The notes beneath the pieces were generated by a model. That model saw only the letters and a program-made list of their open reading frames with translations, had not been told where the DNA came from and did no database searches. From contig JAEBUN010000012.1 in assembly GCA_023014365.1 (NCBI GenBank), positions 868,001 to 932,000 on the forward strand: DNA of 64,000 nucleotides, written 5' to 3'. Below, in pieces: positions 20,697 through 51,500 of this stretch; within the stretch, counting starts at the first letter, position 1; each line of letters starts with the position of its first letter. This stretch comes from Lepiota brunneoincarnata (Eukaryota; Basidiomycota; Agaricomycetes; Agaricales; Agaricaceae). The position numbers and the translations under genes are program-made.

Positions 20697-21475
20697 TGAT
20701 ACGCCGATTTCACGCCTATACATGAATTCCGTACTCCGGAACGATTCTCTACATAGAATCATTGGCTATATCATTAAAGAACTCTATAGAGGATTGGTAC
20801 TATATCCCGTAGTAGCCAGTTCGACCAAACTGAGGATATTCGAGCCTCGGAAGTGTTCAAACCAGCTCATTATCACTAAGCTTAGTGAACCAAGCTATCA
20901 GAACGCTCTCCGGAGGGATTCAGGACTCTACATAGCCTATCAAGTATACCCCGGTCGCATCCAGGGACCTTACGAGCAGTTTTCTGATGAACCCGAATGC
21001 GTTTGAACATAAAAGAATGTACCTAGCGGCTGTCGCAGGCGTATTACGTCTATAGCGAGTTCAATAATGATGACCGGACCACGGAACGGAACGTCCAACG
21101 TTCGGGAGGCAATACCCGATGCCCAAAACCCTAGAAACATCAAAGACTCCTAATTAACGAGTGCTTTGTGGGTCCCGGCACTTCGGCATTCTGCTTAACT
21201 GAGATTAATTACAACGGATCAAGGGATTGTCCATCCGCTATACATTCCGATCATAATTGATCCGGAAACTTAATGTGCTCGCGTGGACGCAGAATAATGC
21301 AGCCGAGCACGGAGCACGTCTGGCTGGATTGCCATTCGTTAATCAGAGAAAAACCCATAACCCAGGGTGAGGTAGAAATGCTGCCGAACCTTCCAAAATG
21401 TTCTACAGTGCCTGTAACAATTAAGCTTATTGTTTTCTATTTCATATTTACTATCTCTCGTATGTATCTAAACAA

Positions 21476-21483
21476 TATAAATA
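21476..21483 (+). promoter_or_regulatory. TATA box in the family T LTR
   Basis: TATAAATA, conserved at the equivalent place in the LTRs at 33713, 37526 and 50196; the solo LTR at 35646 also keeps it. It would set the U3/R boundary about 780-820 bp into the LTR. Confidence 0.6.
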
Positions 21484-21626
21484 CGGTCGCACTTGTTCGT
21501 GGAGAGGAGAGAGGTCTCACCCCTGCTTCCACACGCAAGTCTGCGAGCCGTGATCAAGAACGGTTTCAGAGGGCTATTTAGTGTGCGTCGTTAAGTGTGA
21601 TTTCTTCGGTTGTCGACCAACCCAGG

Positions 21627-21732
21627 GACAGAGACAGAGACCAGAGTTCAGAGTTTAGAGTTCCAGAGTGCTAGAGACAGAGACAGAGACAGAGACCAGA
21701 GTTCAGAGACCAGAGACCAGAGACCAGAGACC
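21627..21732 (+). repeat. AGACAG/AGACCAGAG minisatellite in the LTR
   Basis: Purine-rich short tandem units (GACAGA, CAGAGAC, CAGAGTT). The copy in the solo LTR at 35646-36891 has lost part of this block, which explains its 1246-bp length. Confidence 0.85.
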
Positions 21733-21997
21733 CAGCACTTTGAATTGACAGGGATTGTCCTTTCATTGTTGCACCGTACGGCTAAGATAACTTCAACGGC
21801 TGTTCGTTAACCTCTAAAAACACTACTCTCTTGAATTTCGCTGTCAGAACGCACCCCCAGAACACCCTAAAAGACGAAACTGTTCATTATCTATCTCATT
21901 CCACTCGTATTAGCTTAAGCTTATTGAATAGCGGCTAAGCTTAGTGAAAACGAGCCCCCTATCTATATTAAAACCTACGAAAGTTTCTACCTTTTCA

Positions 21998-22563
21998 TCT
22001 GGAGCCCACCACGAGGGGGGTTTTCAGTTGAATTTCACGAGCCAAACACCAAAAAGACTTGGACACTGGCCCGCCTTTCACCTGCAAAGCAGAAAAAGGT
22101 TCAAGCAAAGACCGTAAAGTCACCCAAAACGTCCTTCGAGAACAGTCTCAGGAAGGTCGACCCCCCAAAACAGAGAACTACTTGGAATTCCAATCGTCCA
22201 GAAGGTTCTGAAGGCCTCATCGCCGCTAGTACCTCTCGAAAGCGAAAAGATCCCGTTAACTCTCTAGCTGCGAACACAGCGAGTGGTTCAGCAGTTGCAG
22301 TATCGAGAGAAGTCGCACAGCCGACCTCTACTGCTCCCAGAATTACACTAAGGCTTCCAGCCTCAGCTCGCAACATAGCGCATATTCTGCGCACCGAAAG
22401 CCAGGACGGCCAGACCGTTCCTACGCTAAGCTTAGCGGTTACAAACCAAAACTCGTTTCATACGAACCCTCCTGGTGCCTCTACGGTACCACAGATATCA
22501 CAGTCAACTCCGACTGTACAGACAAACCAAACTACGCCGTCTACGACGACTACAGCTAGAAAA
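21998..22563 (+). other. Leader between the 5' LTR and the gag ATG, open in the gag frame
   Basis: No stop in the gag frame over this stretch: it reads as a basic, Ser/Thr-rich peptide with APRITLRLPAS before joining MGHERM. Copy 2 differs by a 1-nt indel near 38879, so the first part is not conserved as a frame, but the portion from about 22060 onward is open in both. Either Gag starts upstream of 22564 (non-AUG or spliced leader) or this is chance. One TAAGCTTA at 22427. Confidence 0.45.
22000..22017 (+). promoter_or_regulatory. Putative tRNA primer-binding site
   Basis: TGGAGCCCACCACGAGGG starts 2 nt after the LTR end; the initial TGG would pair with a tRNA CCA end. Copy 2 has TGGAGCCCACTGCGAGGG at the same place (38829). 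I cannot identify the tRNA from sequence alone. Confidence 0.55.
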
Positions 22564-24046
22564 ATGGGACACGAGCGTATGCCAATTCCCTTTAGCAATA
22601 ATGCTCCCAGATGGGATGCATCAAAACCACAGACATTGAGAAATTATCTCTGGACGCTTGAACGGCTCTTCACGATAACGAAGACGACGGACGATGCAGA
22701 AAGGATAAATTGGGCAGTGTCATATGTGGACCAGGATATCCGTGAAGAGTGGATGAGTTTTGCGGAGTTCCCAGCAGGAAGCTGGACAGGCTTCGTAGAG
22801 AGATTGAAGAAAGAGTATCCCGAGACTGTGGCAGCCTGAGCAGGGCTCAGTGCGACGATTGAGGGAACTCTGCACAGAGAGTAGAGGCATTGCAATGAAT
22901 GAGGAGCATAGAGTCTTAGACTTCAAAAGGCGATTCATCCTAGAAGCAGAGAAGTGCCTGAAGTCGCCGGCGGTAGTCTCGAACCGAGAGCTAGTCGAGT
23001 TATTTACGAGCGCACTGGACTCCGTGTTCCAGGACGTACTCAATGCGAGATTAGCGATCACCGGGGCGCGTAGAACCGCGAGCGATGGGTCGGCACTAAC
23101 TGCGAAGGATTTACGCGAAGAGGACCCCTATGATTGGAGGATCGTCGTGGATAAAGCCGTCGAAATTTCGATTGGCAAAACACTTATGCGATCCCTTCAT
23201 CAGGATTCAAGGCCGGTGAACTCGGCATCAATGAGCCATCCACCTGCGACGTCCGGAACAGGGACTTATGACCCTGTAGTAAAGCGAGAGCTGCAAAGCT
23301 TAAAACAGAAGTTTCAGGATGAAGTCTCGCAGATGGCAGGCGGTCTCGCTGAGCTTAAGGACCTCATGAATATCCAGGGGCATACCTTAAAATCATACTT
23401 AGAGAGTTTGGCGAAAGAAGGACATAATCATGCCGGTTATAATCACGCTCAGAGGAATACCGGAAGTGGGTCGGCAGGGTTGCTTTCCGATCGCAAGTGT
23501 TTCTACTGCTGGTTATTAGGGCATAGTTGGTTATTCTGCCCGGACATGGAGGCGGATAAACAAGCTGGCCGAATTAGAGTCGAAGGGAACAAAATATATA
23601 TGGGAGATGGCTCGAGTATCCCTCGAGGAGAAGGGCCTATTAAAGAGAAAGTGGCAAAGTACTATGCGACAAAGGGACAACTCTTCGTTCAGATACCAGA
23701 ACTGCCGGAGGTTGAGCCTGAGTTACCGCAAGTGCCAACGTCAGCGGTGTTTGCACAGAGAGCGTTCCCGAGGTCAGAAAACCAAAGGTCACCAGCGGAA
23801 GAAGAAGTCCGCCGTCTGAAGCAGCGCATGGAAATGTTAGAGACAGTTGCCATCCACGCCGGGAGTGCCCCAAAGGTTAAGCTTATGACCAGAAAGGATG
23901 ATAATGTTGAGATACAGTCTTTGGCCGAGCAATTGGCCCAGATACAGGCTAAGCTTAGTGGTTTGACGGATGGTACGCCCTCGGCAAGCCAGTATTTGGA
24001 CACCAGGAGTGGCGCGAAGACTTGGAACTCAGAGTCGGGTTTCTAA
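22564..24046 (+). pseudogene. gag: gag, family T copy 1 (1-bp frameshift)
   Basis: Structural protein of the retrotransposon particle. ATG at 22564; the N-terminal part (WDASKPQTLRNYLWTLERLF) is a capsid-like domain of the fungal Gypsy Gag type; a CCHC zinc knuckle CFYCWLLGHSWLFC lies at 23498-23539, for RNA binding; the C-terminus is predicted helical (RRLKQRMEMLE). An extra C near 22836 shifts the frame after about 91 codons and creates a TGA at 22837-22839; the rest is open from 22850 to the stop TAA at 24044-24046. Copy 2 lacks this insertion. The slippery heptamer sits immediately before the stop. Confidence 0.9.
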
Positions 24047-25155
24047 AGGGTTCGAGGAAGGAGCCGGCTCTGAAGAAGAAGGTCGCCTTCGCCAGAGGAC
24101 AGACTCCTGAGGACGCGTCGGATTCCGAGCGATCAGAAGAATCAGAAAATGAGGAAATAGGGCAGACAACGGAGAAACCAATGCGTGCCGCAGCAGGAGA
24201 ATTACCATATAGAAATGTGAAACCACTGCGCCTGGTCGTTGAGGTACCACCACTACCTGTCAGAAGGATGGAACCATCCAAGAAGGAGCCTGCGTATAAG
24301 CACCAGGCCCCTATAGAGAGGAATGTCGATGTTGAGGAAGTACTCAGCAGGGTATTGAAGCGAGAAGCCTCAGTATCGCATGGAGAACTCTTGGCCTTGT
24401 CACCGATATACAGGAATGCTTATAGAGAGCGCATTATGAGAAAACGGGTACCCACGAGTCAAAGCTTAATAGCAGGAGTAGGGCCCGGGGACGATAATAC
24501 AGAAGATATAGAGATTAATAGTGGGCCAGTACAAGTCATGATAACGGAGTTGGCAGATGGCTCTCGGAAGTATGATACGGTGCTCCGAGAAGGCTCGGCA
24601 ACCCAAGCCTGGGTAGCTCAGGATCCAATCATGCAGTACTTGGAGTCACTGCCCCGAAGAGACAGGGGACGGCAAGTGTTTATTGCGAAAGAATGCGAGT
24701 CGTTGAGAGTAGTGCCAACTCTGATAAATGGGATTCGGCAGGAAGAGGCCTTGCTAGATAGCGGGTCACAGATCGTCTCCATGAGTCAGGAAGCGGCGAT
24801 TGCATGTCAAGTTTCTTGGGACCCAGATACTACGATAAATTTGCAGAGTGCGAATGGGCAGGTTGAAAAGACTTGTGGATTGGCAAAGAACGTAGGCTTT
24901 ACCTGCAGGGGAGTCACAATCTATTTGCAAGTTCACATCGTTCGTAGCCCCGCGTATCGAGTACTCCTGGGACGACCCTTTGATGTAATGACGGCTAGCG
25001 AAGTCAGGAATAGCGCCAGTGGCGAGCAAACCTTGGTTATTACGGACCCAAATACCAGAGAAAGGGCTGTGTTACCAACTTATGCTCGAGGAGAGTGTAA
25101 TCCTCCTAAGCTTAGGGAAAACAGTCAAAATTTTCAAGAAACCTCAATGAGTTGA
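24022..25155 (+). CDS. pro: Aspartic protease (retropepsin) domain protein, family T copy 1
   Basis: Processes the polyprotein. The frame is in -1 relative to gag and overlaps its end; it has no ATG at its beginning, so expression by frameshifting at 24037 is the natural reading. The first 190 codons are acidic/basic linker; the active-site block LLDSGSQIV follows at 24751-24777 with catalytic Asp codon 24757-24759, and LGRPFD near 24970 fits the C-terminal hydrophobic-Gly block of retropepsins. It ends ATG AGT TGA at 25155, overlapping pol. No internal stops. Confidence 0.85.
   Translation: MELRVGFLKGSRKEPALKKKVAFARGQTPEDASDSERSEESENEEIGQTTEKPMRAAAGELPYRNVKPLRLVVEVPPLPVRRMEPSKKEPAYKHQAPIERNVDVEEVLSRVLKREASVSHGELLALSPIYRNAYRERIMRKRVPTSQSLIAGVGPGDDNTEDIEINSGPVQVMITELADGSRKYDTVLREGSATQAWVAQDPIMQYLESLPRRDRGRQVFIAKECESLRVVPTLINGIRQEEALLDSGSQIVSMSQEAAIACQVSWDPDTTINLQSANGQVEKTCGLAKNVGFTCRGVTIYLQVHIVRSPAYRVLLGRPFDVMTASEVRNSASGEQTLVITDPNTRERAVLPTYARGECNPPKLRENSQNFQETSMS
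24037..24043 (+). promoter_or_regulatory. Predicted -1 frameshift site gag/pro (GGGTTTC)
   Basis: In the gag frame the heptamer reads G GGT TTC and is followed at once by the gag stop TAA. A -1 slip leads directly into the pro frame (Gly-Phe-Leu-Lys-Gly). Same sequence at 40864-40870 and at 1107-1113. Downstream structure not evaluated. Confidence 0.7.
25128..25134 (+). promoter_or_regulatory. Predicted -1 frameshift site pro/pol (AAATTTT)
   Basis: In the pro frame the heptamer reads A AAT TTT, 21 nt before the end of pro; slipping by -1 enters the pol frame (next codon TCA at 25134) with no stop before pol. Conserved at 41955-41961 and in the old copy near 2200-2206. Confidence 0.68.
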
Positions 25156-28100
25156 CTGAGGGACAAGGAGAGGTGGCTTGTATAATAGACTATGATGATG
25201 AGAAGGGCCCTGTCGTCGCACAAACACTAAGCTTAGCAAAAGGAAGCTTCTCAGAGGCCGAGCTACAGCTAATGTTCATTGACCGAGTCATACGCGATGA
25301 GGACTGCCCACAGGAAGATAAAGCAACGGCGTTATTGTGCCTAGGATGCATAGCCAACGCGCAGGGCACAGAGGACCAGGGAATAACTGTCTTCGAAACA
25401 GAAGAAGATGACAAAGATACGGTACAATGCCTGGCTGGGAAGAAATATAAACCAGTAGCCTTAAAAGTGAGGCCAGTGTTGGGTGATCTACTGGAGAGAT
25501 TCAGGATAAAACGAGAAATAAAAGGGGACCCACTGGCAGAAATGCCTGAGCTTAGCGTGCATCCTCCAGAGTTTGTCCCGACAGGCAGATATACGGAGGA
25601 GTGTAAGCTTAAGCTGGACGAAGCCCATGCAGGGGATTTCTTGTGGCCAGAGGAAAGAAAGCTGATGCACCACATCATGATGCTTCAAGAAAAGGCATTC
25701 GCCTGGACAGATGAGGAAAAGGGATGTTTTAGGGAAGATTTCTTCCCGCCGATCGAGATACCGACAGTAGAACATACTCCGTGGGTTGAGAAACCCATTC
25801 CGATTCCACCAGCGATCTATGATGAAGTTTGTGCCATTATAAAGAGAAAGATTAGTGCTGGTGTATACGAGCCGTCGAACTCATCCTATAGATCCAGATG
25901 GTTCTGTGTGGTGAAGAAAGATGGGAAAAGTTTGAGACTGGTACACAGCTTGGAACCGCTGAACAAAGTGACGATAGCGCATTCAGGACTGCCGCCAGCA
26001 ATGGAAGATTTGGCAATGCACTTCGCAGGCAGAGCTTGCGGAGGCATTCTGGATCTATATGTTGGCTATGACGAACGACTGTTAGCTGAGTCGTCTCGGG
26101 ACTTAACAACGTTCCAGACACCTTTTGGAGCGCTACGCTTAGTGACGTTACCCATGGGATGGACCAATTCAGTGCCTATATTTCATGAGGATGTAACAGC
26201 GATCCTAACCAGTGAGATACCAGAATACACGATGCCGTACATAGATGATGTACCTATCAGAGGACCCAAAACCAGATATGAGTTGCCAGATGGCATGGAA
26301 GAGACGCTGAAAGAAAACCCAGGGATCCGACGATTTGTATGGGAACACATGCAGACGGTCAATAGGATTCTACAGAGGATGAAATACGTAGGAGGAACCT
26401 TCTCTGGGCCCAAGACGACTATCTGCGCTGATGAAATCACCGTAGTGGGTTTTGAATGCTCTTATAAAGGACGGTTGCCTGCCACAGACACCATTGGGAA
26501 GATATTAAGATGGGGGGATTGCGAGAATGTCTCCGAGCTAAGGGGTTTTCTAGGAACAGCTATGCGCTGCAGGAATCATATCCCGAAGTTCATAGCCATT
26601 GCTGCACCTCTATACGAAAAGCTTAAGAAAGGGCAAGAGTTTGAATGGGGAGAAAATGAACAGAAAGCACAGCAGGAGCTGAAAGATGCGATTCAACGCT
26701 GTTTCCCGACCAGGAACCCCGAATTCCCGAGTAAACAACCCATAGTAGTAGCCATGGATACCTCATGGAGGGCGGTGGGATACTACATATATCAGCGAGA
26801 TGGAGAAGACGCTAAGCTTATACATTATGCGAAGTTTGGGTCAATATTGTTGGACGAGAGACAGCAGAGGTATTCTCAGCCCAAGCGAGAGCTATGCGGC
26901 TTAAGAATGGTGCTGGAACAGGAGAAATATTTGTTGTGGGGATCGAGAAATCTAGTAGTGGAAACAGACGCGAAGTTTCTCTTTGGGATGTTAAACAACC
27001 CAGGAAAACTCCCGAACGCTACTGTAAACCGTTGGGTGGACTTCATTAGATTGTTCCACTTCACGCTAGTACACAAAGAAGGAAAGACATTTGGGCCGGA
27101 TGGACTGTCCAGACGACGTTACTATCCCGGTGATGAGACAGCCCGTCGTTTCGACGACGGATCCGAGGACGAGGGAGAGGAGTTCGAGTTGATCAAAGGA
27201 GATCCGGGGGCTGCAGATCCGTTACCCTTGGAAGCCTTCTGTGATGAGATCGACAGTCGCTCTGGCTTCTACCAGGGTCTGGCACGTGATGTGTATGATT
27301 TTGAGTATGAGCTGGATCAAGCTCGGGAAGAGTACTTGGATGAACAACAGGCTAAGCTTAGGGTTATAGAAAACCCAGCGTGCCCAGAAAACCACTGACA
27401 AGTACTAAGCTTAATGACGGATGTCAGGCTAATGCCAGATTTCGAAGAGGAAAAGTTGACCGAGATAGAGGAAGCGTATGATGAATCGCGTAGGACAGAT
27501 ACAGCGCGAATACAAGACGGAAGAATACCCAAAGTCAGGGAATACCTGAAAACAGGGGGCAGTAGCGCAGCTGAAGGCTTGGATGAGCCGGATCTGCGTA
27601 AGCTTAAGCATATGGTGGGGCATTTCTTCTTGGACGAAGAGGGGAGACTGTATAGGATGAGCCCTAGCGGTCAGCATCAGCTAGTAGTGGATAAGGAGCA
27701 ACGTATGTATATGTTGCGAGCCAGCCACGACTTCCTAGGACACAGGGGAATATACGCAACCACTAAGCTTATAACGCAGAGGTTCTGGTGGCCGGAAGTT
27801 GAAGGAGACGTAACTTGGTATGTGCAATCGTGCCATCTATGCCAGCAACGACAAAAGGCGATCATCGAGACGCCGCCAATAGTAACGCCCACGCCGTCGA
27901 TATTCCAAGTGCTACATGTGGACACACTACATATGACGCCAAGTTCTAATGGGTGTAGTTATATTGTGCATGGAAGGTGTGGACTGTCGTCCTGGATGGA
28001 GGCAAAAGCTTTGAGAAAAGAGAATGCTAGTTCGATTGCGCAGTGGTTATTTGAAGATATCATTTGCAGATGGGGCTGTATAGTGAAGATTGTCACGGAC

Positions 28101-28856
28101 AACGGTTCTCCATTTAAGAAAGCTGTTCGATGGCTGGAAGAAAAATATGGGATAAAAGGAGTAACGATATCTCCTTACAATTCCAAAGCGAACGGGATTA
28201 TTGAAAGAGCCCACTGGGATGTGCGGCAAATGTTGTACAAAGCTACAGATGGAGATGTCAAAAAGTGGTATTGGCACCTACCGCACGTTATGTGGGCAGA
28301 TCGGATAACCATTAGAAAAGGAATGGGGTGTTCCCCGTACTTTCTGGTAACCGGAGCGCACCCGACGCTACCTCTGGATGTCAAAGAGGCCACTTGGCTA
28401 GTACAACTACCAAATAAGTACTTAACCACGGCTGAGTTAATAGGATACCGAGCTCAGGCTTTGGCAAAACATGTTCGGCATGTTGAGGAGGTGCGTCAGC
28501 GTGTTTCAGACACTAAGCTTAGCAAGGCTTGGGAGATGGAACGACAAGCAGCGCATAAGATAAAAGATTATCGCTTCGGCCCGGGAGATTTAGTATTAGT
28601 GAGAAACACAGCTATAGAGAGCTCAGCAGACAGGAAGATGAAACCCAGGTATCTAGGACCCATGGTGGTCATATCTAGATCGAAGGGAGGATCATATATC
28701 CTGGCAGAGTTGGATGGCTCTGTATGGCAGAATAAAGTGGCGGCGTTCAGAGTAATTCCCTACTTAGCCAGAAAACATATGCCGTTGCCGCTGGAGCTTA
28801 CAAGAGTTGTTAGATCTGTCGCCAGAGGGACTGAAGACCCTGGAGGAGACTACTGA
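25152..28856 (+). pseudogene. pol: pol (RT, RNase H, integrase), family T copy 1, with one nonsense and one frameshift
   Basis: Reverse transcriptase, RNase H and integrase polyprotein. [20 protein letters not shown] finger block at about 25918, catalytic YIDD at 26238-26249. RNase H: VVAMDTSWRAVGYY (26748) and [11 protein letters not shown] (26960). Integrase: HDFLGH...CHLCQQ zinc-binding motif (27727-27846), DDE core with HVDTLH (27915), TDNGSPF (28092) and IIERAH (28198), and a C-terminal GPY-like block (YLGPMVV, 28645). A TGA at 27396-27398 (CGA in copy 2) divides pol, and an extra T near 28799 replaces the C-terminus. No ATG opens the frame. Confidence 0.9.
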
Positions 28857-28978
28857 GGATGAGCCTAGTGACAGATGGGAGCCAGTAGAGTTGGAGGGAT
28901 AGAAAAAACCTGATATTGTGGACAGAACTATCTACTTATCGAAGGAAAACTATCCTGGGGACTGTAAAAGCGTTAAGC

Positions 28979-30325
28979 TTAAGCGGGGGAGGACTTGTCC
29001 AAGTCGGAAAGGTTGCGCAAAAGGCTTTTGAGACGGATGCGCTCTTGAATGAGGAATTGGAACCTCTTTAAGTTGGCTTCGAGCGAGGGAATAGCATCGA
29101 TGAAGTCCCGGCTGAGCGAATTGAGGTCGCATTTGACTGACCGAGCGTCGTCACTGCGAGATTCGGATTCGTACTCGTCGCGAGAGTGAGACAGGAGGTT
29201 TTGGAGTTCCTGGAGCAAACGAGCTGCCCGGGAGAAGTGTCAGTACCGTTAAGCTTAGCGAAGAGAAGTGAGAAATTGCCCACCAGATAAGCCCGCAAAG
29301 GTGCGCTCATCGGAAGCGGACTCGGTACGGGCGCGCTTGGCAGTATTGGCGCTGGCTTTGGCTAGAACCTGTTCAGCCCGGACATAACAGCAGTGTTTAG
29401 TGTTCATATTGGGAACTTGACAATAGGAAAGAAGACGGACGGTGCCTTTAGACGATGAGGACTTTTTGACGGTCTCCTAAAGAGGGAGGAAGTCAGAATC
29501 AGTGGTTGGGGGGAGTGGAGCTGGCGCACCACGTCGGAGGTAGACAAACGACGCTTGCGATAAGGCGAGACTACACGAACCTCTTCGACGATAGCTTGAG
29601 AGACCTCCTCATCGACCATCATGTCCTGGAGGCGAGCGATTATCTCAGCCAATGTAATAGGTTGAGAAGCAGCTATATTACTGTGTCAGCACCAGTTGCT
29701 CGGGAGTTGGAAGCACTGGGCATACTCTCAGCAAGCTCGGTATCGGTGTCTACCACAACAGCAGCAGAGACAGGGGCCTTGCGACCTTTGCGAGGCTAAG
29801 CTTATACATGAGGAGACGATTGGAGCCAAAAGAACGCTAAGCTTACGCGTTTGGGGACAGCAGAGCCTTCGGCAACGTTGGAGGAAGTAGAGCCAGTCGT
29901 GGACGATGGGTTCTGAGCCTCTTCAGTCCTGGATTTGTGGGATTCTTCGGAACGAACGCGATTAATGCGGCTACAGCATTCAGAGAGCGCCTTATAGATT
30001 GCGGGCATCTCATAAGACGAATGGTAGTTGTTTTGGTAAATTTCGTAGAGCTTGCGGATACGGAAGACGTAGTCCTGGTTGACATGAAGCTTGATAGCCT
30101 CATTATCCTCCGATAACGCTTCAATATAAGCAGACTAGAAATGATTTGGAAACGGCGAGAGAAGCATGGAAAGAGTAGACATACCCCAGGGGCGTCGAAC
30201 GCAAGGAGAGCCTTCTCGACGAGGGGACGAGCGACTTGGCCGTTTTGCAGGCACTGAAGACGACCTTTGGCGTTGCTGATGAGATCGTCGAGCTCAACCT
30301 GGAGATGGGGGATAGAAGAAGCCAT
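28979..30325 (-). CDS. Family T antisense gene 2, copy 1: spliced, about 358 aa, helical C-terminus
   Basis: Transcribed toward pol. Start ATG 30325; six exons deduced from GT...AG introns of 50-60 nt: 30325-30185, 30134-29847, 29795-29726, 29672-29533 (or 29530), 29476-29284, 29223-28979; the lengths sum to a multiple of three. The product begins MASSIPHLQ, has a helical central part (IRKLYEIYQNN, SECCSRINRVR), a basic segment with a Cys pair (NTKHCCYVRAEQ) and a leucine-rich C-terminus (LLQELQNLLSHSRDEYESES, later LIQERIRLKSLLRNLSD) likely to form a coiled coil. Intron 2 starts and ends within TAAGCTTA palindromes (29838 and 29797), and the stop codon lies in another (28974-28981). I do not recognise the family; particle-associated, regulatory and captured-host origins are all open. 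Confidence 0.72.
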
Positions 30326-38826: not shown

Positions 38827-39391
38827 TCTGGAGCCCACTGCGAGGGGGGTTTTCAGTTGAATTTCACGAGACAAACACCAAAAGACTTGGACACTGGCCT
38901 GCCTTTCACCTGCGAAGCAGAAAAAGGTTCAAGCAAAGACCATAAAATCACCCAAAACGTCCTTCGAGAACAGTCTCAGGAAGGTCAACCCCCCAAAACA
39001 GAGAACTACTCGGAATTCCAATCGTCCAGAAGGTTCTGAAGGCCTCATCGCCACTAGTACCTCTCGAAAGCGAAAAGATCCCGTTAACTCTTTAGCTGCG
39101 AACACAGCGAGTGGTTCAGCAGTTGCAGTATCGAGAGAAGTCGCACCGCCGACCTCTACTGCTCCCAGAATTACTATAAGGCTTCCAGCCTCAGCTCACA
39201 ACATAGCGCATATTCTGCACACTGAAAGCCAGGATGGTCAGACCGTTCCTACACTAAGCTTAGCATTTACAAACCAAAACTCGTTTCATACGAACCCTCC
39301 TGGTGCCTCTACGGTACCACAGATATCACAGTCAACTCCGACTGTACAGACAAACCAAACTACGCCGTCTACGACGACTACAGCTAGAAAA
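38827..39391 (+). other. Leader of family T copy 2
   Basis: Priming site at 38829-38846, then the stretch that is open in the gag frame from about 38885 to the ATG at 39392. TAAGCTTA at 39255. Confidence 0.5.
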
Positions 39392-40873: not shown

Positions 40874-41982
40874 AGGGTTCGAGGAAGGAGCCGGCTCTGA
40901 AGAAGAAGGTCGCCTTCGCCAGAGGACAGACTCCTGAGGACGCGTCGGATTCCGAGCGATCAGAAGAATCAGAAAATGAGGAAATAGGGCAGACAACGGA
41001 GAAACCAATGCGTGCTGCAGCAGGAGAATTACCATATAGAAATGTGAAACCACTGCGCCTGGTCGTTGAGGTACCACCACTGCCTGTCAGAAGGATGGAA
41101 CCATCCAAGAAGGAGCCTGCGTATAAGCACCAGGCCCCTATAGAGAGGAATGTCGATGTTGAGGAAGTACTCAGCAGGGTATTGAAGCGAGAAGCCTCAG
41201 TATCACATGGAGAACTCTTGGCATTGTCACCGATATACAGGAATGCTTATAGAGAGCGCATTATGAGAAAACGGGTACCCACGAGTCAAAGCTTAATAGC
41301 AGGAGTAGGGCCCGGGGATGATGATACAGAAGATATAGAGATTAATAGTGGGCCAGTACAAGTCATGATAACGGAGTTGGCAGACGGCTCTCGGAAGTAT
41401 GATACGGTGCTCCGAGAAGGCTCGGCAACCCAAGCCTGGGTAGCTCAGGATCCAATCATGCAGTACTTGGAGTCACTGCCCCAAAGAGACAGGGGACGGC
41501 AAGTGTTTATTGCGAAAGAATGCGAGCCGTTGAGAGTAGTGCCAACTCTGATAAATGGGATTCGGCAGGAAGAGGCCTTGCTAGATAGCAGGTCACAGAT
41601 CGTCTCCATGAGTCAGGAAGCAGCGATTGCATGTCAAGTTTCTTGGGACCCAGATACTACGATAAATTTGCAGAGTGCGAATGGGCAGGTTGAAAAGACT
41701 TGTGGATTGGCAAAGAACGTAGGCTTTACCTGCAGGGGAGTCACAATCTATTTGCAAGTTCACATCGTTCGTAGCCCCGCGTATCGAGTACTCCTGGGAC
41801 GACCCTTTGATGTAATGATGGCTAGCAAAGTCAGGAATAGCACCAGTGGCAAGCAAACCTTGGTTATTACGGACCCAAATACCAGAGAAAGGGCTGTTTT
41901 ACCAACTTATGCTCGAGGAGAGTGTAATCCTCCTAAGCTTAGGGAAAACAGTCAAAATTTTCAAGAAACCTCGATGAGTTGA
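40849..41982 (+). CDS. pro: Retropepsin frame of family T copy 2, catalytic motif DSG changed to DSR
   Basis: Open for 377 codons in -1 relative to gag. The active-site Asp codon (41584-41586) and Ser remain, but the next codon is AGG (41590-41592) instead of GGG: Gly to Arg through a CpG-to-CpA change. The Gly of D-[ST]-G is required in retropepsins, so the enzyme is very probably dead although the frame is open. The AAATTTT heptamer at 41955-41961 precedes the pol overlap. Confidence 0.85.
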   Translation: MELRVGFLKGSRKEPALKKKVAFARGQTPEDASDSERSEESENEEIGQTTEKPMRAAAGELPYRNVKPLRLVVEVPPLPVRRMEPSKKEPAYKHQAPIERNVDVEEVLSRVLKREASVSHGELLALSPIYRNAYRERIMRKRVPTSQSLIAGVGPGDDDTEDIEINSGPVQVMITELADGSRKYDTVLREGSATQAWVAQDPIMQYLESLPQRDRGRQVFIAKECEPLRVVPTLINGIRQEEALLDSRSQIVSMSQEAAIACQVSWDPDTTINLQSANGQVEKTCGLAKNVGFTCRGVTIYLQVHIVRSPAYRVLLGRPFDVMMASKVRNSTSGKQTLVITDPNTRERAVLPTYARGECNPPKLRENSQNFQETSMS

Positions 41983-44900
41983 CTGAGGGACAAGGAGAGG
42001 TGGCTTGTATAATAGACTATGATGATGAGAAGGGCCTTGTCATCGCACAAACACTAAGCTTAGCAAAAGGAAGCTTCTCAGAGGCCGAGCTACAGCTAAT
42101 GTTCATTGACCGAGTTATACGCGATGAGGACTGCCCATAGGAAGATAAAGCAACGGTGTTATTGTGCCTAGGACGCATAGCCAACGCGCAGGGCACAAAG
42201 GACCAGGGAATAACTGTCTTCGAAACAGAAGAAGATGACAAAGATACGGTACAATGCCTGGCTGGGAAGAAATATAAACCAGTAGCCTTAAAAGTGAGGC
42301 CAGTGTTGGGTGATCTACTGGAGAGATTCAGGATAAAACGAGAAATAAAAGGGGACCCACTGGCAGAAATGCCTGAGCTTAGCATGCATCCTCCAGAGTT
42401 TGTCCCGACAGGCAGATATACGGAGGAGCGTAAGCTTAAGCTGGACGAAGCCCATGCAGGGGATTTCTTGTGGCCAGAGGAAAGAAAGCTGATGCACCAC
42501 ATCATGATGCTTCAAGAAAAGGCATTCGCCTGGACAGATGAGGAAAAGGGATGTTTTAGGGAAGATTTCTTCCCACCGATTGAGATACCAACAGTAGAAC
42601 ATACTCCGTGGGTTGAGAAGCCCATTCCAATTCCACCAGCGATCTATGATGAAGTTTGTGCCATTATAAAGAGAAAGATTAGTGCTGGTGTATACGAGCC
42701 GTCGAACTCATCCTATAGATCCAGATGGTTCTGTGTGGTGAAGAAAGATGGGAAAAGTTTGAGACTGGTACACAGCTTGGAACCGCTGAACAAAGTGACG
42801 ATAGCGCATTCAGGACTGCCGCCAGCAACGGAAGATTTGGCAATGCACTTCGCAGGCAGAGCTTGCGGAGGCATTCTGGATCTATATGTTGGCTATGACG
42901 AACGACTGTTAGCTGAGTCGTCTCGGGACTTAACAACGTTCCAGACGCCTTTTGGAGCGCTACGCTTAGTGACGTTACCCATGGGATGGACCAATTCAGT
43001 GCCTATATTTCATGAGGATGTAACAGCGATCCTGGCCAGTGAGATACCAGAATACACGATGCCGTACATAGATGATGTACCTATCAGAGGACCCAAAACT
43101 AGATATGAGTTGCCAGATGGCACGGAAGAGATGCTGAAAGAAAACCCAGGGATCCGACGATTTGTATGGGAACACATGCAGACGGTCAATAGGATTCTAC
43201 AGAGGATGAAATACGTAGGAGGAACCTTCTCTGGGCCCAAGACGACTATCTGCGCTGATGAAATCACCGTAGTGGGTTTTGAATGCTCTTATAAAGGACG
43301 GTTGCCTGCCACAGACACCATTGGGAAGATATTAAGATGGGGGGATTGCGAGAATGTCTCCGAGCTAAGGGGTTTTCTAGGAACAGCTATGCGCTGCAGG
43401 AATCATATCCCGAAGTTCATAGCCATTGCTGCACCTCTATACGAAAAGCTTAAGAAAGGGCAAGAGTTTGAATGGGGAGAAAATGAACGGAAAGCACAGC
43501 AGGAGCTGAAAGATGTGATTCAACGCTGTTTCCCGACCAGGAACCCCGAATTCCCGAGTAAACAACCCATAGTAGTAGCCGTGGATACCTCATGGAGGGT
43601 GGTGGGATACTACATATATCAGCGAGATGGAGAAGACGCTAAGCTTATACATTATGCGAAGTTTGGGTCAATATTATTGGACGAGAGACAGCAGAGGTAT
43701 TCTCAGCCCAAGCGAGAGCTATGTGGCTTAAGAATGGTGCTGGAACAGGAGAAATATTTGTTGTGGGGATCGAGAAATCTAGTAGTGGAAACAGACGCGA
43801 AGTTTCTCTTTGGGATGTTAAACAACCCAGGAAAACTCCCGAACGCTACTGTAAACCGTTGGGTGGACTTCATTAGATTGTTCCACTTCACGCTAGTACA
43901 CAAAGAAGGAAAGACATTTGGGCCGGATGGACTGTCCAGACGACGTTACTATCCCGGTGATGAGACAGCCCGTCGTTTCAACGACGGATCCGAGGACGAG
44001 GGAGAGGAGTTCGAGTTGATCAAAGAAGATCCGGGGGCTGCAGATCCGTTACCCTTGGAAGCCTTCTGTGATGAGATCGACAGTTGCTCTGGCTTCTACC
44101 AGGGTCTGGTGCGTGATGTGTATGATTTTGAGTATGAGCTGGATCAAGCTCGGGAAGAGTACTTGGATGAACAACAGGCTAAGCTTAGGGTTATAGAAGA
44201 CCCAGCCTGTCCAGAAAACCATCGACAAGTACTAAGCTTAATGACGGATGTCAGGCTAGTGCCAGATTTTGAAGAGGAAAAGTCGACCGAGATAGAGGAA
44301 GCATATGATGAGTCGCGCAGGACAGATACAGTGCGAATACAGGACAAAAGAATACCCAAAGTCAGGGAATACCTGAAAACAGGGGGCAGTAGCGCAGCTG
44401 AAGGCTTGGATGAGCTGGATTGGCGTAAGCTTAAGCATATGGTGGAGCATTTCTTCTTGGACGAAGAGGGGAGACTGTATAGGATGAGCCCTAGCGGTCA
44501 GCATCAGCTAGTAGTGGATAAGGAGCAACGTATGTATATGTTGCGAGCCAGCCACGACTTCCTAGGACACAGGGGAATATACGCAACCACTAAGCTTATA
44601 ACGCAGAGGTTCTGGTGGCCGGAAGTTGAAGGAGACGTAACTTGGTATGTGCAATCGTGCCATCTATGCCAGCAACGGCAAAAGGCGATCATCGAGACGC
44701 CGCCAATAGTAACGCCCATGCCGTCGATATTCCAAGTGCTACATGTGGACACACTACATATGACGCCAAGTTCTAATGGGTGTAGTTATATTGTGCATGG
44801 AAGGTGTGGACTGTCATCCTGGATGGAGGCAAAAGCTTTGAGAAAAGAGAATGCTAGTTCGATTGCGCAGTGGTTATTTGAAGATATCATTTGCCGATGG

Positions 44901-45728
44901 GGCTGTATAGTGAAGATTGTCACGGACAACGGTTCTCCATTTAAGAAAGCTGTTCGATGGCTGGAAGAAAAATATGGGATAAAAGGAGTAACGATATCTC
45001 CTTACAATTCCAAAGCGAACAGGATTATTGAAAGAGCCCACTGGGATGTGCGGCAAATGTTGTACAAAGCTACAGATGGAGATGTCAAAAAGTGGTATTG
45101 GCACCTACCGCACGTTATGTGGGCAGATCGGATAACCATTAGAAAAGGAATGGGGTGTTCCCCGTACTTTCTGGTAACCGGAGCGCACCCGACGCTACCT
45201 CTGGATGTCAAAGAGGCCACTTGGCTAGTACAACTACCAAATAAGTACTTAACCACGGCCGAGTTGATAGGATACCGAGCTCAGGCTTTGGCAAAACATG
45301 TTCAGCATGTTGAGGAGGTGCGTCAGCGTGTTTCAGACACTAAGCTTAGCAAGGCTTGGGAGATGGAACGACAAGCAGCGCATAAGATAAAAGATTATCG
45401 CTTTGGCCCGGGAGATTTAGTATTAGTGAGAAACACAGCTATAGAGAGCTCAGCAGACAGGAAGATGAAACCCAGGTATCTAGGACCCATGGTGGTCATA
45501 TCTAGATCGAAGGGAGGATCATATATCCTGGCAGAGTTGGATGGCTCTGTATGGCAGAATAAAGTGGCGGCGTTCAGAGTAATTCCCTACTTAGCCAGAA
45601 AACATATGCCGTTGCCGCTGGAGCTACAAGAGTTGTTAGATCTGTCGCCAGAGGGACTGAAGACCCTGGAGGAGACTACTGAGGATGAGCCTAGTGACAG
45701 ATGGGAGCCAGTAGAGTTGGAGGGATAG
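41979..45728 (+). pseudogene. pol: pol (RT, RNase H, integrase), family T copy 2, one early nonsense codon
   Basis: Apart from TAG at 42138-42140 (CAG in copy 1) the frame is open for 1190 codons from an internal ATG at 42156. RT YIDD at 43065-43076; RNase H block [14 protein letters not shown] near 43575; integrase HDFLGH...CHLC (44550-44670), HVDTLH (44742), TDNGSPF (44920), IIERAH (45026); GPY-like C-terminus and an acidic tail ending WEPVELEG. Gly beside the integrase Glu motif is Arg in this copy (KANR for KANG). The stop precedes all catalytic domains, so initiation at the internal ATG could still in principle make the whole RT-IN part. Confidence 0.9.
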
Positions 45729-45804
45729 AAAAAACCTGATATTGTGGACAGAACTATCTACTTATCGAAGGAAAACTATCCTGGGGACTGTAAAAGCGTT
45801 AAGC

Positions 45805-47151
45805 TTAAGCGGGGGAGGACTTGTCCAAGTCGGAAAGGTTGCGCAAAAGGCTTTTGAGACGGATGCGCTCTTGAATGAGGAATTGGAACCTCTTTAAGTT
45901 GGCTTCGAGCGAGGGAATAGCATCGATGAAGTCCCGGCTGAGCGAATTGAGGTCGCATTTGACTGACCGAGCGTCGTCACCGCGAGATTCGGATTCGTAC
46001 TCGTCGCGAGAGTGAGACAGGAGGTTTTGGAGTTCCTGGAGCAAACGAGCTGCCCGGGAGAAGTGTCAGTACCATTAAGCTTAGCGAAGAGAAGTGAGAA
46101 ATTGCCCACCAGATAAGCCCGCAAAGGTGCGCTCATTGGAAGCAGACTCGGTACGGGCGCGCTTGGCAGTATTGGCGCTGGCTTTGGCTAGAACCTGTTC
46201 AGCCCGGACATAACAGCAGTGTTTAGTGTTCATATTGGGAACTTGACAATAGGAAAGAAGACGGACGGTGCCTTTATATGATGAGGACTTTTTGACGGTC
46301 TCCTAAAGAGGGAGGAAGTCAGAATCAGCGGTTGGGGGGAGTGGAGCTGGCGCACCACGTCGGAGGTAGACAAACGACGCTTGCGATAAGGCGAGACTAC
46401 ACGAACCTCTTCGACGATAGCTTGAGAGACCTCCTCATCAACCATCATGTCCTGGAGACGAGCGATTATCTCAGCCAATGTAATAGGTTGAGAAGCAGCT
46501 ATATTACCGTGTCAGCACCGGTTGCTCGGGAGTTGGAAGCACTGGTCATACTCTCAGCAAGCTCGGTATCGGTGTCTACCACAACAGCAGCAGAGACAGG
46601 GGCCTTGCGACCTTTGCGAGGCTAAGCTTATACATGAGGAGACGATTGGAGCCAAAAGAACGCTAAGCTTACGCGTTTGGGGACAGCAGAGCCTTCGGCA
46701 ACGTTGGAGGAAGTAGAGCCAGTCGTGGACGATGGGTTCTGAGCCTCTTCGGTCCTGGATTTGTGGGATTCTTCAGAACGAACGCGATTAATGCGGCTAC
46801 AGCATTCAGAGAGCGCCTTATAGATCGCGGGCATCTCATAAGACGAATGGTAGTTGTTTTGGTAAATTTCGTAGAGCTTGCGGATACGGAAGACGTAGTC
46901 CTGGTTGACATGAAGCTTGATAGCCTCATTATCCTCCGATAACGCTTCAATATAAGCAGACTAGAAATGATTTAGAAACGGCGAGAGAAGCATGGAAAGA
47001 GTAGACATACCCCAGGGGCGTCGAACGCAAGGAGAGCCTTCTCGACGAGGGGACGAGCGACTTGGCCGTTTTGCAGGCGCTGAAGACGACCTTTGGCGTT
47101 GCTGATGAGATCGTCGAGCTCGACCTGGAGATGGGGGATAGAAGAAGCCAT
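45805..47151 (-). CDS. Family T antisense gene 2, copy 2: spliced, about 358 aa
   Basis: Same exon structure as copy 1 at a constant offset of 16826 bp (exons about 47151-47011, 46960-46673, 46621-46552, 46498-46359, 46302-46110, 46049-45805). I see no stop or frameshift in the exons. Intron 2 is again bordered by TAAGCTTA at 46664 and 46623; the stop is inside the one at 45800. It ends only 77 bp from the pol stop, so the two transcripts converge tail to tail and may overlap. The protein is unknown, with a helical, Leu-rich C-terminus. Confidence 0.72.
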
Positions 47152-47837
47152 TTTCTTGCGAAGGGTGTCTGCTAGAATGAGGCGTCGCTCCCTCGCTTTT
47201 ATAAGAAAAGGCCATAGGCAGTGATGACGAATCATAATGAGTGGATGAAGAGCACCATCCACCCTAAGCTTATGACCTGAGGGGCCTAGGAAACCTGTAA
47301 TCTTGAGTAGCCAGCCTTCAACAGACTTGCTGAACCACAGTTGCCCTATTAGGTAACATGTCGCCAGGGTCTCGCGGTTATCAGTGTGCACAGGGATTCT
47401 GATGGAACGGTGAGGGCACCGATTTCAATTTGGCTAGGGGGAGATGGGCCCCAAGTGGCGCAAGTGGCGCTTCAGTTTTGTTTGACGCAACCTTTTTCGC
47501 GGCGAACACCGTGTACAGGCTAGTTCAGGTCCGGGCTTGTAAGAAAACCAGAACGGATGACTGGGTCACTACGCGTTGCGGGTCACGGCACGCTGAGATG
47601 TCAATAAACATCACTGATAGATCAGAGAGGCATATAATGAGTATATAAGTGACTGGCAACCTAAACTAGCTTAGGAGTCTCCCAGGAGGTCTTTAGCTTA
47701 GCTTTAGGAGATGACAAGAAAGTCAGAAACAGTTTAGCTTAACTCAGTAGGAGACAAGGAACAACAAGATGACTATTGGGATGTATATACATGACAAGAT
47801 TATATACTACATCCAAGAAGTAAACTAGGCGCAGAGA
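47152..47837. other. Intergenic region between antisense genes, copy 2
   Basis: Counterpart of 30326-31010; no gene. TAAGCTTA at 47265; AT-rich promoter-like sequence near 47630-47650 on the minus strand. Confidence 0.5.
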
Positions 47838-49868
47838 TCACTCAAGGTCTTCTAGAACAGACTCCGGATCCTGAGTCATCGGGAAAGCGAGGAAGAGAAG
47901 CGATTTGAGCTCCTCGAATTCCTCGTATGTCGGGACCCCCGGAAAGTTGTTGGCAAACTCAAAGAATGCCCGGACGTCTTCAAGGGAGTCGGCCATACCC
48001 ATCTCTACAAAAGCCACGTCGTTACCATCCAAGGCAGTCCTGGTAGCTTGCATCTCCTGGACGAATTGGTAAACTACACGGCAGTGGTGAAACGCTGAAG
48101 CCTCGTAAGCGACGTGGTTCGCCTCCAGGCTGACCAAGCTAGAGGACACAACACGCGCGAACGCGGCCAGATCTAGAAAAATAAAGAGAATAAAAAAAGG
48201 GAAAAATAGTGAACAGAGAAACTTACGGTATTCACTGGTCAGTGAGGATGTGACCAGGGCATTCGCAACGCTGGCCGAAACCTGGGGATGGTCCGCGAAG
48301 GTACAAGGGTAGTTGTACAAGTCGCAGCTGCGACACTTCTTACCCTTGCCCAGAGGCTCGCACTCCAACTTACGAGCAGCGCAAGAAGGACACCGAGACC
48401 GAGGTGGCACGTACTGGAGCAGATGTCAAAGCCGTCAGTAAGGAACCACGAGAAAACTTGGAGAACGTACCGAAAGCTGGCTAGCTGCCAGCAGCCTAGG
48501 AAAGTCCTCACAAAAGAGCGGGACTGGGTGCCGGTATCCATGGTCCCGAATAATTTCGGCCTCAGAGCGCCGAACACGAGCCCGGGGAATGTATTTCTTC
48601 ATCCGCGTGTTGGAACTCTTCTTGGACAAAAGGACGCGTTGTTGACGCGACGGGCCAGCATGAGGGGACTCTTGAGGGATCTCCGGAACCACCGGGCTAG
48701 GCAAACGAGAAAGGACGGGGGTCGGAGAAGCTAAGAACGCATCTTGAAAAACAAAAGTCGGTTCTTGAGGGGCAGGCGAAGGCTTCAGAAGGAGCTCCAA
48801 ATCTGGAGAAGGAGAAATCTCCACAGCGCTTGTGGGAGACTCGACTGGAGCGCCAGCTAAGTGAGGTGGTGATGGTGTTGGGCACCTAGGTGAAGCCAGC
48901 ACCTGTTGCCCATCCAGAGAAGAGGACCAGCTAAAGATTTTGAAGAGGTCAACTTGAGAGACCTCAGGGACTGGAGAATGCGATGACAAGTTAGAACCCG
49001 CCAGGAATAAGGGGAGAGGGGGCGGCGTCGATGATTTTGCCCTCTGTTTGCCTTTAAGGGCAGCTGGTATACGCGCTAAAACAGAAGTCAGCAGAAAGAA
49101 CAAATATATCGTGAAAAATGACTAAGCTTACGCGTTGAAGTAGCAGAAGAGAGTACGGGGGAAGAAGGCCGGTTTGTTGAAGGGCCCGGCACCTCCAAAC
49201 CTGATGCAATACCCAAGGGAGGGAGCACCAGCGAGTCTTCCTCGTCCAGGGTGCACAGAGAGACGGCGAGAGGGGGCAGCGACATTGAACTGGACAAAGC
49301 CTCTGTGGATAATCCACCAGAGGGCCCGCCAACGGGGATACCTGACGAGGGTTCTGCGGAAAATCCGGCAGAGTGCTCGTCGGTTGGATTGCACAACGAC
49401 GCGATGGAAATCACGCGTCTTGGCACTGGAGCGTACAAGGGAGAGGCTGGCGGAGGAGTTGGTTCACGGGGCGGAGAGTATGGTGGAGGAGGGGTCCTTG
49501 CCACACCCACCTGACGATTTCTGCAAGCTCCTTGAGCTCCTCGCCCTCCTCTAGCCCTCCTAGTATGCGGTGCTGGTGGTTCCCATTGAGGTAGGAGGTT
49601 GCGACGCGCCGGGAGGCAAATAGTGAGACCTAAAAGTAGAGAAAACATAAGTAAAGACAACGAGAACAGGGGAAAATGCGACTTACGTTGCACGATCGAT
49701 GATGAAGGCGCGCCTTGGGAAGCCATTGAGGCGTTGCTCGGCCCAGGGTAGCCTGAAAACAGTGTTAAGAAAACAGACAAAACTGTAACTCGAACTCTAC
49801 TTACTGGAAGAAGAGTCTGAGTCCTCCTCGTAGCAAGCACGTTTGCTGCTGCATGTGTTTCTGTCCAT
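47838..49868 (-). CDS. Family T antisense gene 1, copy 2: 584-aa Zn2Cys6-like protein, apparently intact
   Basis: ATG at 49868, TGA at 47838-47840. Exons by homology: 49868-49805, 49752-49687, 49629-49132, 49075-48471, 48413-48227, 48172-47838, every intron with GT...AG and 50-60 nt long. The cysteine cluster (CPSC...C...CRSC......C, CX2CX6CX8CX2CX6C) lies in exon 5, and its spacing equals the binuclear zinc cluster of fungal transcription factors, with basic residues between Cys 2 and Cys 4 (ARK, GKGKK). Most of the rest is Pro/Ser-rich and probably disordered; the C-terminus (MADSLEDVRAFFEF, TYEEFEELKSLLFLAF) is acidic and helical, as in an interaction or activation domain. A role as a DNA-binding regulator is inferred, not shown; the cluster is internal rather than N-terminal, which is unusual. 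Confidence 0.78.
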
Positions 49869-50195
49869 TGTTGATAGAAGTGGGCGTTGAAAAGTGAATA
49901 TGCGAGCAGGATAGACGAGTAAGAAGCGAGAGGGAGAACGAAAGAGATGAAACGAGACCTTGGGACATTTAAAAGACCCAATAACAAGATAAAAATTTAA
50001 GCTATAGCGACAAGAAGTTGATCTATACATTTAAACTCGGTGACATGACATCATTCTGAAATAAGCTTAGCGAAAGTGTGCTACCCTCGAAGCTGGTGAA
50101 CGTTCTAGACCATAGAGCGCGTCAGAGAGACTCAGATACTGCGAATTTGAAGGAGATAATGACTGAGGACAGTCAGCAATTTGGTTAGGGGGAGA
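49869..50195. other. Upstream region of antisense gene 1 and polypurine tract, copy 2
   Basis: Counterpart of 33386-33712. TAAGCTTA at 50062; AGGGGGAGA at 50187-50195 directly precedes the 3' LTR. Confidence 0.55.
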
Positions 50196-51496
50196 TGATA
50201 CGCCGATTTCACGCCTATACATGAATTCCGTACTCCGGAACGATTCTCTACATAGAATCATTGGCTATATCATTAAAGAACTCTATAGAGGATTGGTACT
50301 ATATCCCGTAGTAGCCAGTTCGACCAAACTGAGGATATTCGAGCCTCGGAAGTGTTCAAACCAGCTCATTATCACTAAGCTTAGTGAACCAAGCTATCAG
50401 AACACTCTCCGGAGGGATTCAGGACTCTACGTAGCCTATCGAGTATACCCCGGTCGCATCAAGGGACCTTACGAGCAGTTTTCTGATGAACCCAAATGCG
50501 TTTGAACATAAAAGAATGTACCTAGCGGCTGTCGCAGGCGTATTACGTCTATAGCAAGTTCAATAATGATGACCGGACCACGGAACGGAACATCCAACGT
50601 TCGGGAGGCAATACCCGATGCCCAAAACCCTAGAAATATCAAAGACTCCTAATTAACGAGTGCTTTGGGGGTCCCGGCACTTCGGCATACTACTTAACTG
50701 AGATTAATTACAACGGATCAAGGAATTGTCCATCCGCTATACATTCCGATCATAATTGATCCGGAAACTTAACGCGCTCGCGTGGATGCAGAATAATGCA
50801 GACGAGCACGGAACACGTCTGGCTGGATTGCCATTCATTAATCAGAGAAAAACCCATAACCCAGGGTGAGGTAGAAATGCTGCCGAACCTTCCAAAATGT
50901 TCTACAGTGCCTGTAACAATTAAGCTTATTGTTTTCTATTTCATATTTACTATCTCTCGTATGTATCCAAAGAATATAAATACGGTCGCACTTGTTCGTG
51001 GAGAAGCAAGAGGTCTCACCCCCACTTCCACACGCAAGTCTGCGAGCCGTGATCAAGAACAGTTTCAGAGGGCTATTTAGTGTGCGTCGTTAAGTGTGAT
51101 TTCTTCGGTTGTTGACCAACCCAGAGACAGAGACAGAGACCAGAGTTCAGAGTTTAGAGTTCCAGAGTGCTAGAGACAGAGACAGAGACAGAGACCAGAG
51201 TTCAGAGACCAGAGACCAGAGACCAGAGACCCAGCACTTTGAATTGACAGGGATTGTCCTTTCATTGTTGCACCGTATGGCTAAGATAACTTCAACAGCT
51301 GTTCGTTAACCTCTAAAAACACTACTCTCTTGAATTTCGCTGTCAGAACACACCCCCAGAACACCCTAAAAGACGAAACTGTTCATTATCTATCTCATTC
51401 CACTTGTATTAGCTTAAGCTTATCGAATTGCGGCTAAGCTTAGTGAAAACAAGCCCACTATCTATATTAAAACCTACGAAAGTTTCTACCTTTTCA
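50196..51496 (+). mobile_element. 3' LTR of family T copy 2
   Basis: 1301 bp; TAAGCTTA at 50376, 50921, 51415 and 51435; followed by duplication GCGG. Confidence 0.95.
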
Positions 51497-51500
51497 GCGG

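Follow-up and report, generated by a model that had tools for sequence, protein, structure and literature searches.

Family T elements in the window

The stretch of Lepiota brunneoincarnata DNA analyzed here, a window of 64,000 bp (C6:868001-932000) in a genome of 55.6 Mb, contains copies of a long terminal repeat (LTR) retrotransposon, here called family T, through which one exact 8-bp palindrome, TAAGCTTA, is dispersed. The element T1 (20697-35013, plus strand; 14,317 bp) has LTRs that are 98.8% identical (20697-21997 and 33713-35013) and lies within a 4-bp target duplication, ACGG (20693-20696 and 35014-35017). The second copy T2 (37526-51496, plus strand; 97.3-97.7% identical to T1) lies within the target duplication GCGG (37522-37525 and 51497-51500); the two duplications share CGG as their 3' end. 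Two old fragments, A (1-3362, plus strand; 89-90% identical) and B (5438-14161, minus strand; 79-91% identical, and interrupted by 700-bp repeats), and a solo LTR (35646-36891, plus strand) complete the set. The reading frames of T1 for gag (22808-24045), protease (23959-25152) and, within pol, reverse transcriptase (RT)/RNase H (25116-27395) and integrase (27399-28853) are all on the plus strand, followed by two predicted antisense genes, gene 1 (28979-30325) and gene 2 (31014-33385), on the minus strand. With its LTRs, its short target duplication and the order protease, RT-RNase H, integrase, T is an element of the Ty3/Gypsy type; relatives of its pol are 52-71% identical among the matches listed (120 of 1832), and one of them is named Agaricus bisporus.

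Counts and enrichment of the palindrome

TAAGCTTA is the most frequent 8-mer in the window as a whole and in each of T1 and T2. It occurs 77 times, always within a T copy (5 times in fragment A, 15 in fragment B, 27 in T1, 3 in the solo LTR and 27 in T2). In T1 the sites start at 20877 (this first one spanning 20877-20884), 21422, 21916, 21936, 22427, 23878, 23950, 25107, 25228, 25604, 26813, 27353, 27406, 27599, 27764, 28514, 28974, 29250, 29797, 29838, 30439, 32640, 33579, 33893, 34438, 34932 and 34952, and those of T2 stand at matching positions. The recount thus agrees with a sequence-only reading of this DNA, which had reported 27 sites in each of the two elements, 3 of 4 expected sites in the solo LTR, and none elsewhere in the window; its total of 76 has to be raised by one. 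The “19 of 19” that it gave for the old fragments holds for the T1 sites that these fragments cover, all of which are kept (5/5 in A, 14/14 in B), but the fragments contain 20 sites, as B carries an additional one (30866).

A T unit counted with one LTR (13,016 bp) has 23 palindromes, where a third-order Markov model fitted to that sequence predicts 0.5. The 24 one-mismatch variants of the word sum to 11 occurrences in T1 (<0.5 per word) and are not enriched, and a scan of T1 found no other palindrome that approaches TAAGCTTA. Genome-wide, the palindrome is found 5370 times, a figure that includes all sites whether in T or not; the words of the same composition TTAGCTAA, AATCGATT and ATTCGAAT, the latter two containing CpG, are found 419, 675 and 842 times. 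The first 100 genomic places listed, all on contig C1, include clusters spaced like the sites in T LTRs. Six of eight genomic loci that were fetched match T (L003-L008) and two do not (L001 and L002); isolated sites outside of T therefore exist.

Within one T unit, the sites are embedded in dissimilar flanks. Counted outward from the palindrome and without formal test over the 23 sites, G occupies position +1 in 25 of the 46 arms (10/23 and 15/23), and T occupies position +3 in 2 (0/23 and 2/23); these biases are similar on both arms, as for a dimer whose footprint would exceed 8 bp. The half-site AGCTTA occurs 58 times per unit, of which 46 belong to the 23 palindromes, and the other 12 compare to 13.7 expected under a model of the same sequence. 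Since the palindrome is exact and half-sites are not in excess, the pattern suggests a homodimer on duplex DNA, although the flanks are only partly symmetric.

Sites within coding sequence

Eleven of the 23 sites per unit are located in the gag, protease, pol and integrase frames, where they encode Lys-Leu nine times and Ser-Leu twice. The three sites in gag and protease (22808-25152) are each read as xxT AAG CTT Axx (Lys-Leu), and the eight in pol overall (25116-28853) comprise six Lys-Leu and two Ser-Leu; of the 11 Lys-Leu pairs that pol and integrase together contain, six are spelled by TAAGCTTA. When synonymous codons were shuffled, with 5000 shuffles for each reading frame, 0.105 sites were expected (0.025+0.004+0.039+0.037) against the 11 observed, in agreement with the previous statement that coding cannot explain the sites. 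The T proteins were compared with 61 rows, consisting of 60 database relatives over 1100 aa (from the 120 listed of 1832) and the sister family U described below: the 16 core residues encoded by the motif match 0.34 of the relatives’ rows, as opposed to 0.56 at all positions (P 0.013). At site 25604, the residue preceding Lys-Leu is Cys in T versus Arg in 61/61 rows, and the Leu itself is found in 0/61. Because the core residues match the relatives below average, and because of the Cys at 25604, the protein sequence seems to have given way to the motif in T.

Retention of the palindrome in T copies

Retention was assessed in 34 copies after projection on T1, namely 28 stretches of pol (5.3 kb), T2, old fragments A and B, the solo LTR, and the copies B1 (C69) and B2 (C16); the 28 pol stretches are the best matches to T1 pol, which biases them to young copies. 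B2 is excluded from the totals, as a younger T LTR is nested in it and the projection assigned the sites of that LTR to the 5' LTR; the B2 row, confounded in this way, shows 20/22 projected sites kept (P 0.004), while the raw B2 string contains 19. Of the 378 T1 sites covered in the other copies, 363 are intact, and 13 of the 15 losses represent a single shared event, the loss of site 25604 in subfamily C. All 13 subfamily C copies, which lack site 25604, have TAAGCTTA 57 bp away at 25547-25554, where T1 reads TGAGCTTA. As B1 and old fragment A keep site 25604 and lack the one at 25547, both the loss and the gain can be placed in the C lineage.

Control 8-mers for retention were T1 words without CpG, TpG or CpA inside or touching them, which leaves CpG decay out of the comparison, and the tests assume that sites are independent. 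B1 keeps 26/26 motifs, both LTRs counted, versus 0.652 of the control words (binomial P 1.5e-5), and old fragment B keeps 14/14 versus 0.478 (P 3.3e-5). Per base outside of CpG context, 0/208 motif positions have changed in B1 versus 3.6% in the control (P 0.0005), and 0/112 in old fragment B versus 7.7% (P 0.00015); the same measure is not significant in L030, old fragment A and the solo LTR (P 0.21, 0.21 and 0.53). Private substitutions that followed insertion number 0/1464 and 1/1128 motif cells against control rates of 0.0013 and 0.0003, a comparison without power. The sequence-only reading had cautioned that retention in old copies is weaker evidence than it looks, due to CpG-biased decay; this caution is answered for B1 and old fragment B, which exceed CpG-free controls. 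The younger copies are uninformative. The motif is kept beyond the needs of the codons in which it lies, and selection appears to maintain it in T. The old T copies have a CpG observed/expected ratio of 0.14-0.17, compared to 0.91 in T1, and 80-84% of the T1 CpGs that they cover are now TG or CA; such a loss is the mark expected of cytosine methylation of transposons, or of mutation resembling repeat-induced point mutation (RIP).

The antisense genes

Antisense gene 1 has a predicted product of 338 or 359 aa, depending on the splice model. In its top model, which an ad hoc splice score ranked first among 852 (the introns of both antisense genes are all predicted), intron 2 has its donor on palindrome 29838 and its acceptor on palindrome 29797, site 29250 lies within intron 5, and the stop codon TAA falls inside site 28974. 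The product has no Pfam domain above cut-off, and its segments show ratios of nonsynonymous to synonymous substitution rates (dN/dS) of 0.15-1.04. Basic stretches are visible by eye in the translation.

Antisense gene 2 has six predicted exons, and palindrome 32640 coincides with the predicted donor GTAAGC of its intron 3. The T1 version is broken by an insert of ~340 bp (~31992-32329) that T2 does not have, and the T2 counterpart encodes 584 aa (47838-49868); by eye, a stretch resembling the insert in translation also occurs near L049:4957. The cysteine cluster of gene 2, C-x2-C-x6-C-x8-C-x2-C-x6-C, conforms to the spacing of Zn2Cys6 proteins, whose consensus is C-x2-C-x6-C-x(5-12)-C-x2-C-x(6-8)-C, and the compared sequences of T, B and C60/C35 all retain its cysteines. 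The cluster exon (31401-31586, minus strand) has dN/dS values of 0.09 (B1), 0.12 (B2) and 0.17 (old B), with a value of 0.98 against T2 that derives from four changes; the C-terminal exon has 0.10 (B1), 0.14 (B2) and 0.09 (old B), and part of exon 4 has 0.29 (B1), 0.17 (B2) and 0.25 (old B). Purifying selection is strong on the cluster exon and on the C-terminal one, and T thus has frames under purifying selection across copies, as LTR elements with a conserved antisense gene do. Judged by its sequence, the gene 2 product is the best candidate for a protein that binds TAAGCTTA; the sequence-only reading had proposed the product of gene 1, and the six-cysteine cluster and conserved exons of gene 2 (dN/dS 0.09-0.17), set against the lack of a Pfam domain above cut-off and the segment values of 0.15-1.04 in gene 1, move the candidacy to gene 2. 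A Protein Data Bank (PDB) sequence search returned two haemoglobin matches (E ~0.3).

Relatives of T and other elements

The sister Gypsy family U (C17:772501-788000; LTRs 99.4% identical) has a pol that is 64% identical to that of T, and just one TAAGCTTA in 15.5 kb, so that the enrichment does not extend to this related element. Its antisense region contains a diverged gene 2 whose C-terminal exon is 34% identical to T (E 2e-6 as a single comparison; 0/1000 shuffles as good), with only five cysteines of a cluster readable by eye. The word WGTTAACW, picked post hoc as a possible motif of U from 8 sites in 14.5 kb, occurs 2971 times genome-wide, below its control (3335), and is not claimed.

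Searches of the genome with gene 2 found T copies, U copies, a pair on C60 and C35, and two distant sequences among the matches listed (150 of 224 scored); one search recovered ten U-type copies of gene 2 and two at 33-34% (12/12 candidates scored). Outside the genome, protein searches with gene 2 yielded 0/2623 candidates at E 0.001 and 0/378 at E 0.01, and scans based on the pol alignment uncovered no relative in contig collections from viruses or from bacteria and archaea. The C60/C35 homologue of gene 2 (L039:7771-9133 and L041:6806-8168), located within an array of repeated segments, is 55-67% identical in its C-terminal half and 37% further up; three exons read stop-free, and 20 kb around it contain neither a match to T gag or pol nor, on either contig, a single TAAGCTTA. 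This homologue could be either a relative of the gene that T captured or a domesticated copy. The two contigs are ~97-99% alike and perhaps represent both haplotypes.

A third and very distant relative of gene 2 with a cysteine cluster (L049:6568-7526, minus strand) aligns to U (0/1000 shuffles as good) and not to T (126/1000). It adjoins a chromovirus-like Gypsy element (L049:7691-9905; G000:C6:111.7-113.9 kb) with a dispersed, oriented motif of CGG type, CTCCGNNTCGGNCCCGA, present in five exact copies and one with a single mismatch in 2.2 kb, the pattern being derived from these same sites. With at most one mismatch, the core of CTCCGNNTCGGNCCCGA occurs 973 times forward and 855 times reverse in the genome, whereas the reversed control occurs 138 and 152 times; its occurrence in the 64-kb window does not exceed chance. 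The places listed suggest four CTCCGNNTCGGNCCCGA sites per LTR and two internal ones.

Two further repeats were noted. A 700-bp repeat without any TAAGCTTA occurs seven times in the window (4731-5433, 8291-9003, 10667-11369, 19788-20488, 56893-57593, 61237-61947 and 61989-62705), with two copies inside old fragment B and one adjoining it. The 7-bp unit CAGAGAC forms tandem arrays in five T LTRs (21629-21732, 34645-34748, 38451-38561, 51121-51231 and 36571-36626), with ~15-16 copies in the LTRs of T1 and T2 and 8 in the solo LTR.

Interpretation of the palindrome

T may need a sequence-specific DNA-binding protein that binds the palindrome as a homodimer; this protein would most likely be encoded by the element itself, as the product of antisense gene 2 and perhaps with the gene 1 product as its partner, and would most likely act in anti-silencing or chromatin activation. 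The probability of this reading is placed at roughly 0.45, short of 0.5 because the +4 flanks differ and exon 3 of gene 2 is near neutral. Recognition by a protein of the same element, as the sequence-only reading had proposed, is consistent with the sites and genes described here. With ~23 sites per unit spread across LTR, coding and antisense regions, the protein would mark or coat the whole element; its most likely use would be to fend off host silencing by cytosine methylation, or otherwise to activate T chromatin, as VANC proteins do for VANDAL transposons. Bound along its own element, such a protein could keep T open while host genes would be little affected, following the logic of VANC.

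Several observations weigh against this reading. The flanks of the palindrome are only partly symmetrical, with A at +4 in 12/23 right arms and T in 12/23 left arms, and exon 3 of gene 2 has dN/dS values of 0.81 (B1), 1.10 (B2) and 0.37 (old B). The Pfam matches of gene 2 remain below threshold (zf-ChsH2 18.1 bits versus 23.2, Zn_clus 12.0 versus 21), as does that of the C60 homologue to Zn_clus PF00172 (15.2 bits, cut-off 21); AlphaFold modelled the 62 residues of the cluster exon poorly (predicted local distance difference test, pLDDT, 53.7), and this model was not used. CGG triplets are usual in Zn2Cys6 targets and are absent from TAAGCTTA. Retention is not significant in T2 (27/27 versus 0.926, P 0.13), L029 (11/11 versus 0.956, P 0.61), L030 (10/11 versus 0.705, P 0.12), L038 (9/11 versus 0.714, P 0.35), old fragment A (5/5 versus 0.682, P 0.15) and the solo LTR (3/4 versus 0.440, P 0.23). 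Finally, U has a diverged gene 2 yet no comparably enriched palindrome (no exact gapped palindrome reached at least five copies); U speaks against a simple rule of one gene 2, one palindrome, and the pairing of gene 2 and motif comes from one family.

Among the alternatives, enhancer hijacking fares best, although it is unlikely: T would recruit a dimeric host activator through its transcription-factor site, and the antisense proteins would do something else. Such an origin would suit the higher density of sites in the LTRs (4 in 1.3 kb each, against 19 in 11.7 kb of internal sequence), and the gene 2 homologue on C60 and C35, found apart from T gag and pol, makes a host-encoded binder of this class possible. 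An ordinary promoter, on the other hand, would not need sites as remote from the 5' LTR as those throughout gag, pol, integrase and both antisense genes, and the surroundings of the C60/C35 homologue are themselves free of the palindrome. Somewhat less probable is a site for T's own protein with a use other than anti-silencing, such as nuclear import or tethering of cDNA, or autoregulation. Sites distributed over the element would allow any piece of cDNA to be bound, and the basic stretches seen by eye in the gene 1 translation would be compatible with such a role; nothing specific speaks against it, except that CpG decay caused by the host gives a direct reason for anti-silencing. Action at the RNA level, by dimerization or packaging of self-complementary RNA or as a site for an RNA-binding protein, is improbable: palindromes can self-pair, many sites lie in transcribed regions, and the +4 bias is asymmetric, but half-sites outside the palindromes are not in excess and the strongest flank biases (+1 and +3) are alike on both arms. 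That the sites are a functionless by-product of ancestral repeat expansion or of codon or mutation bias is hardly credible, since even though young copies could simply have inherited them, and retention in the six copies listed above is individually non-significant, the flanks within one unit are unlike, codon shuffles cannot reproduce the sites, and this account conflicts with the retention in B1 and old fragment B and with the exchange of site 25604 for 25547.

Comparison with known systems

The VANDAL21/VANC21 and VANDAL6/VANC6 systems of Arabidopsis, which belong to the Mutator-like element (MULE) type of DNA transposons, have short family-specific motifs that are dense in one family and rare in others (PMC5735166; PMC10398659). 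T is like them in its dense, family-specific short motif, and the same rationale, the targeting of an element's own copies only, would apply (PMC5735166; PMC10398659). T is an LTR retrotransposon, unlike VANDAL, and neither of its antisense proteins has a Pfam match above cut-off. The VANC21 motif YAGTATTAY is not self-reverse-complementary, is mostly non-coding, and occurs in one orientation, often in tandem repeats (PMC5735166); the T sites, in contrast, are exact palindromes, dispersed singly, and some of them fall within coding sequence or on predicted splice sites. The parallel that the sequence-only reading drew with VANC would hold at the level of function only and fails for the architecture of the motif; T would resemble VANDAL/VANC in its working, and is not a member of that system.

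In the plant Gypsy elements Retand, RIRE2 and Grande, two reports place antisense open reading frames (ORFs) between pol and the 3' LTR, and describe the Retand TRP28 protein as predicted to bind DNA, with its function unknown (PMC11963269; PMC7264820). The antisense genes of T occupy the same location; T differs from these plant elements in being of fungal type and in having a cysteine cluster instead of TRP28, and Retand is described there with tandem arrays and no dispersed target site (PMC11963269; PMC7264820). The Boty-like elements of Botrytis, with the antisense gene brtn, likewise are fungal LTR retrotransposons with an extra antisense gene (cited in PMC7264820). With fungal Zn2Cys6 (GAL4-type) factors, gene 2 shares the spacing of six cysteines and a weak, sub-threshold Pfam match; it differs from them in falling below the Pfam cut-off, in a putative target without CGG triplets, and in its antisense position within a retrotransposon. 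Boty-like elements are not known to carry a dispersed motif, and among the matches listed from open-licence literature on retrotransposon antisense genes, dispersed palindromes and TAAGCTTA there was no report of a comparable system.

Implications

According to two reports, the antisense ORFs of LTR retrotransposons have no known function (PMC7264820; PMC11963269). T combines a conserved antisense cysteine-cluster gene with a selected, family-specific and putatively dimer-type DNA site. A fuller scenario, more tentative than the reading given above, is that T has rewritten itself by point mutation, in gag-pol residues, splice sites and a stop codon, to carry an exact palindromic self-address, 23 times in each unit, that is read by its own antisense zinc-cluster protein, as an element-wide mechanism of self-recognition and anti-silencing that would be independent of VANC. 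Given the chromovirus-like element with its different, CGG-type motif, the genome may harbor several such self-address systems. If this is true, not only DNA transposons but also retrotransposons would have evolved a sequence-specific form of self-recognition, whose target sites would here be accommodated within coding sequence.

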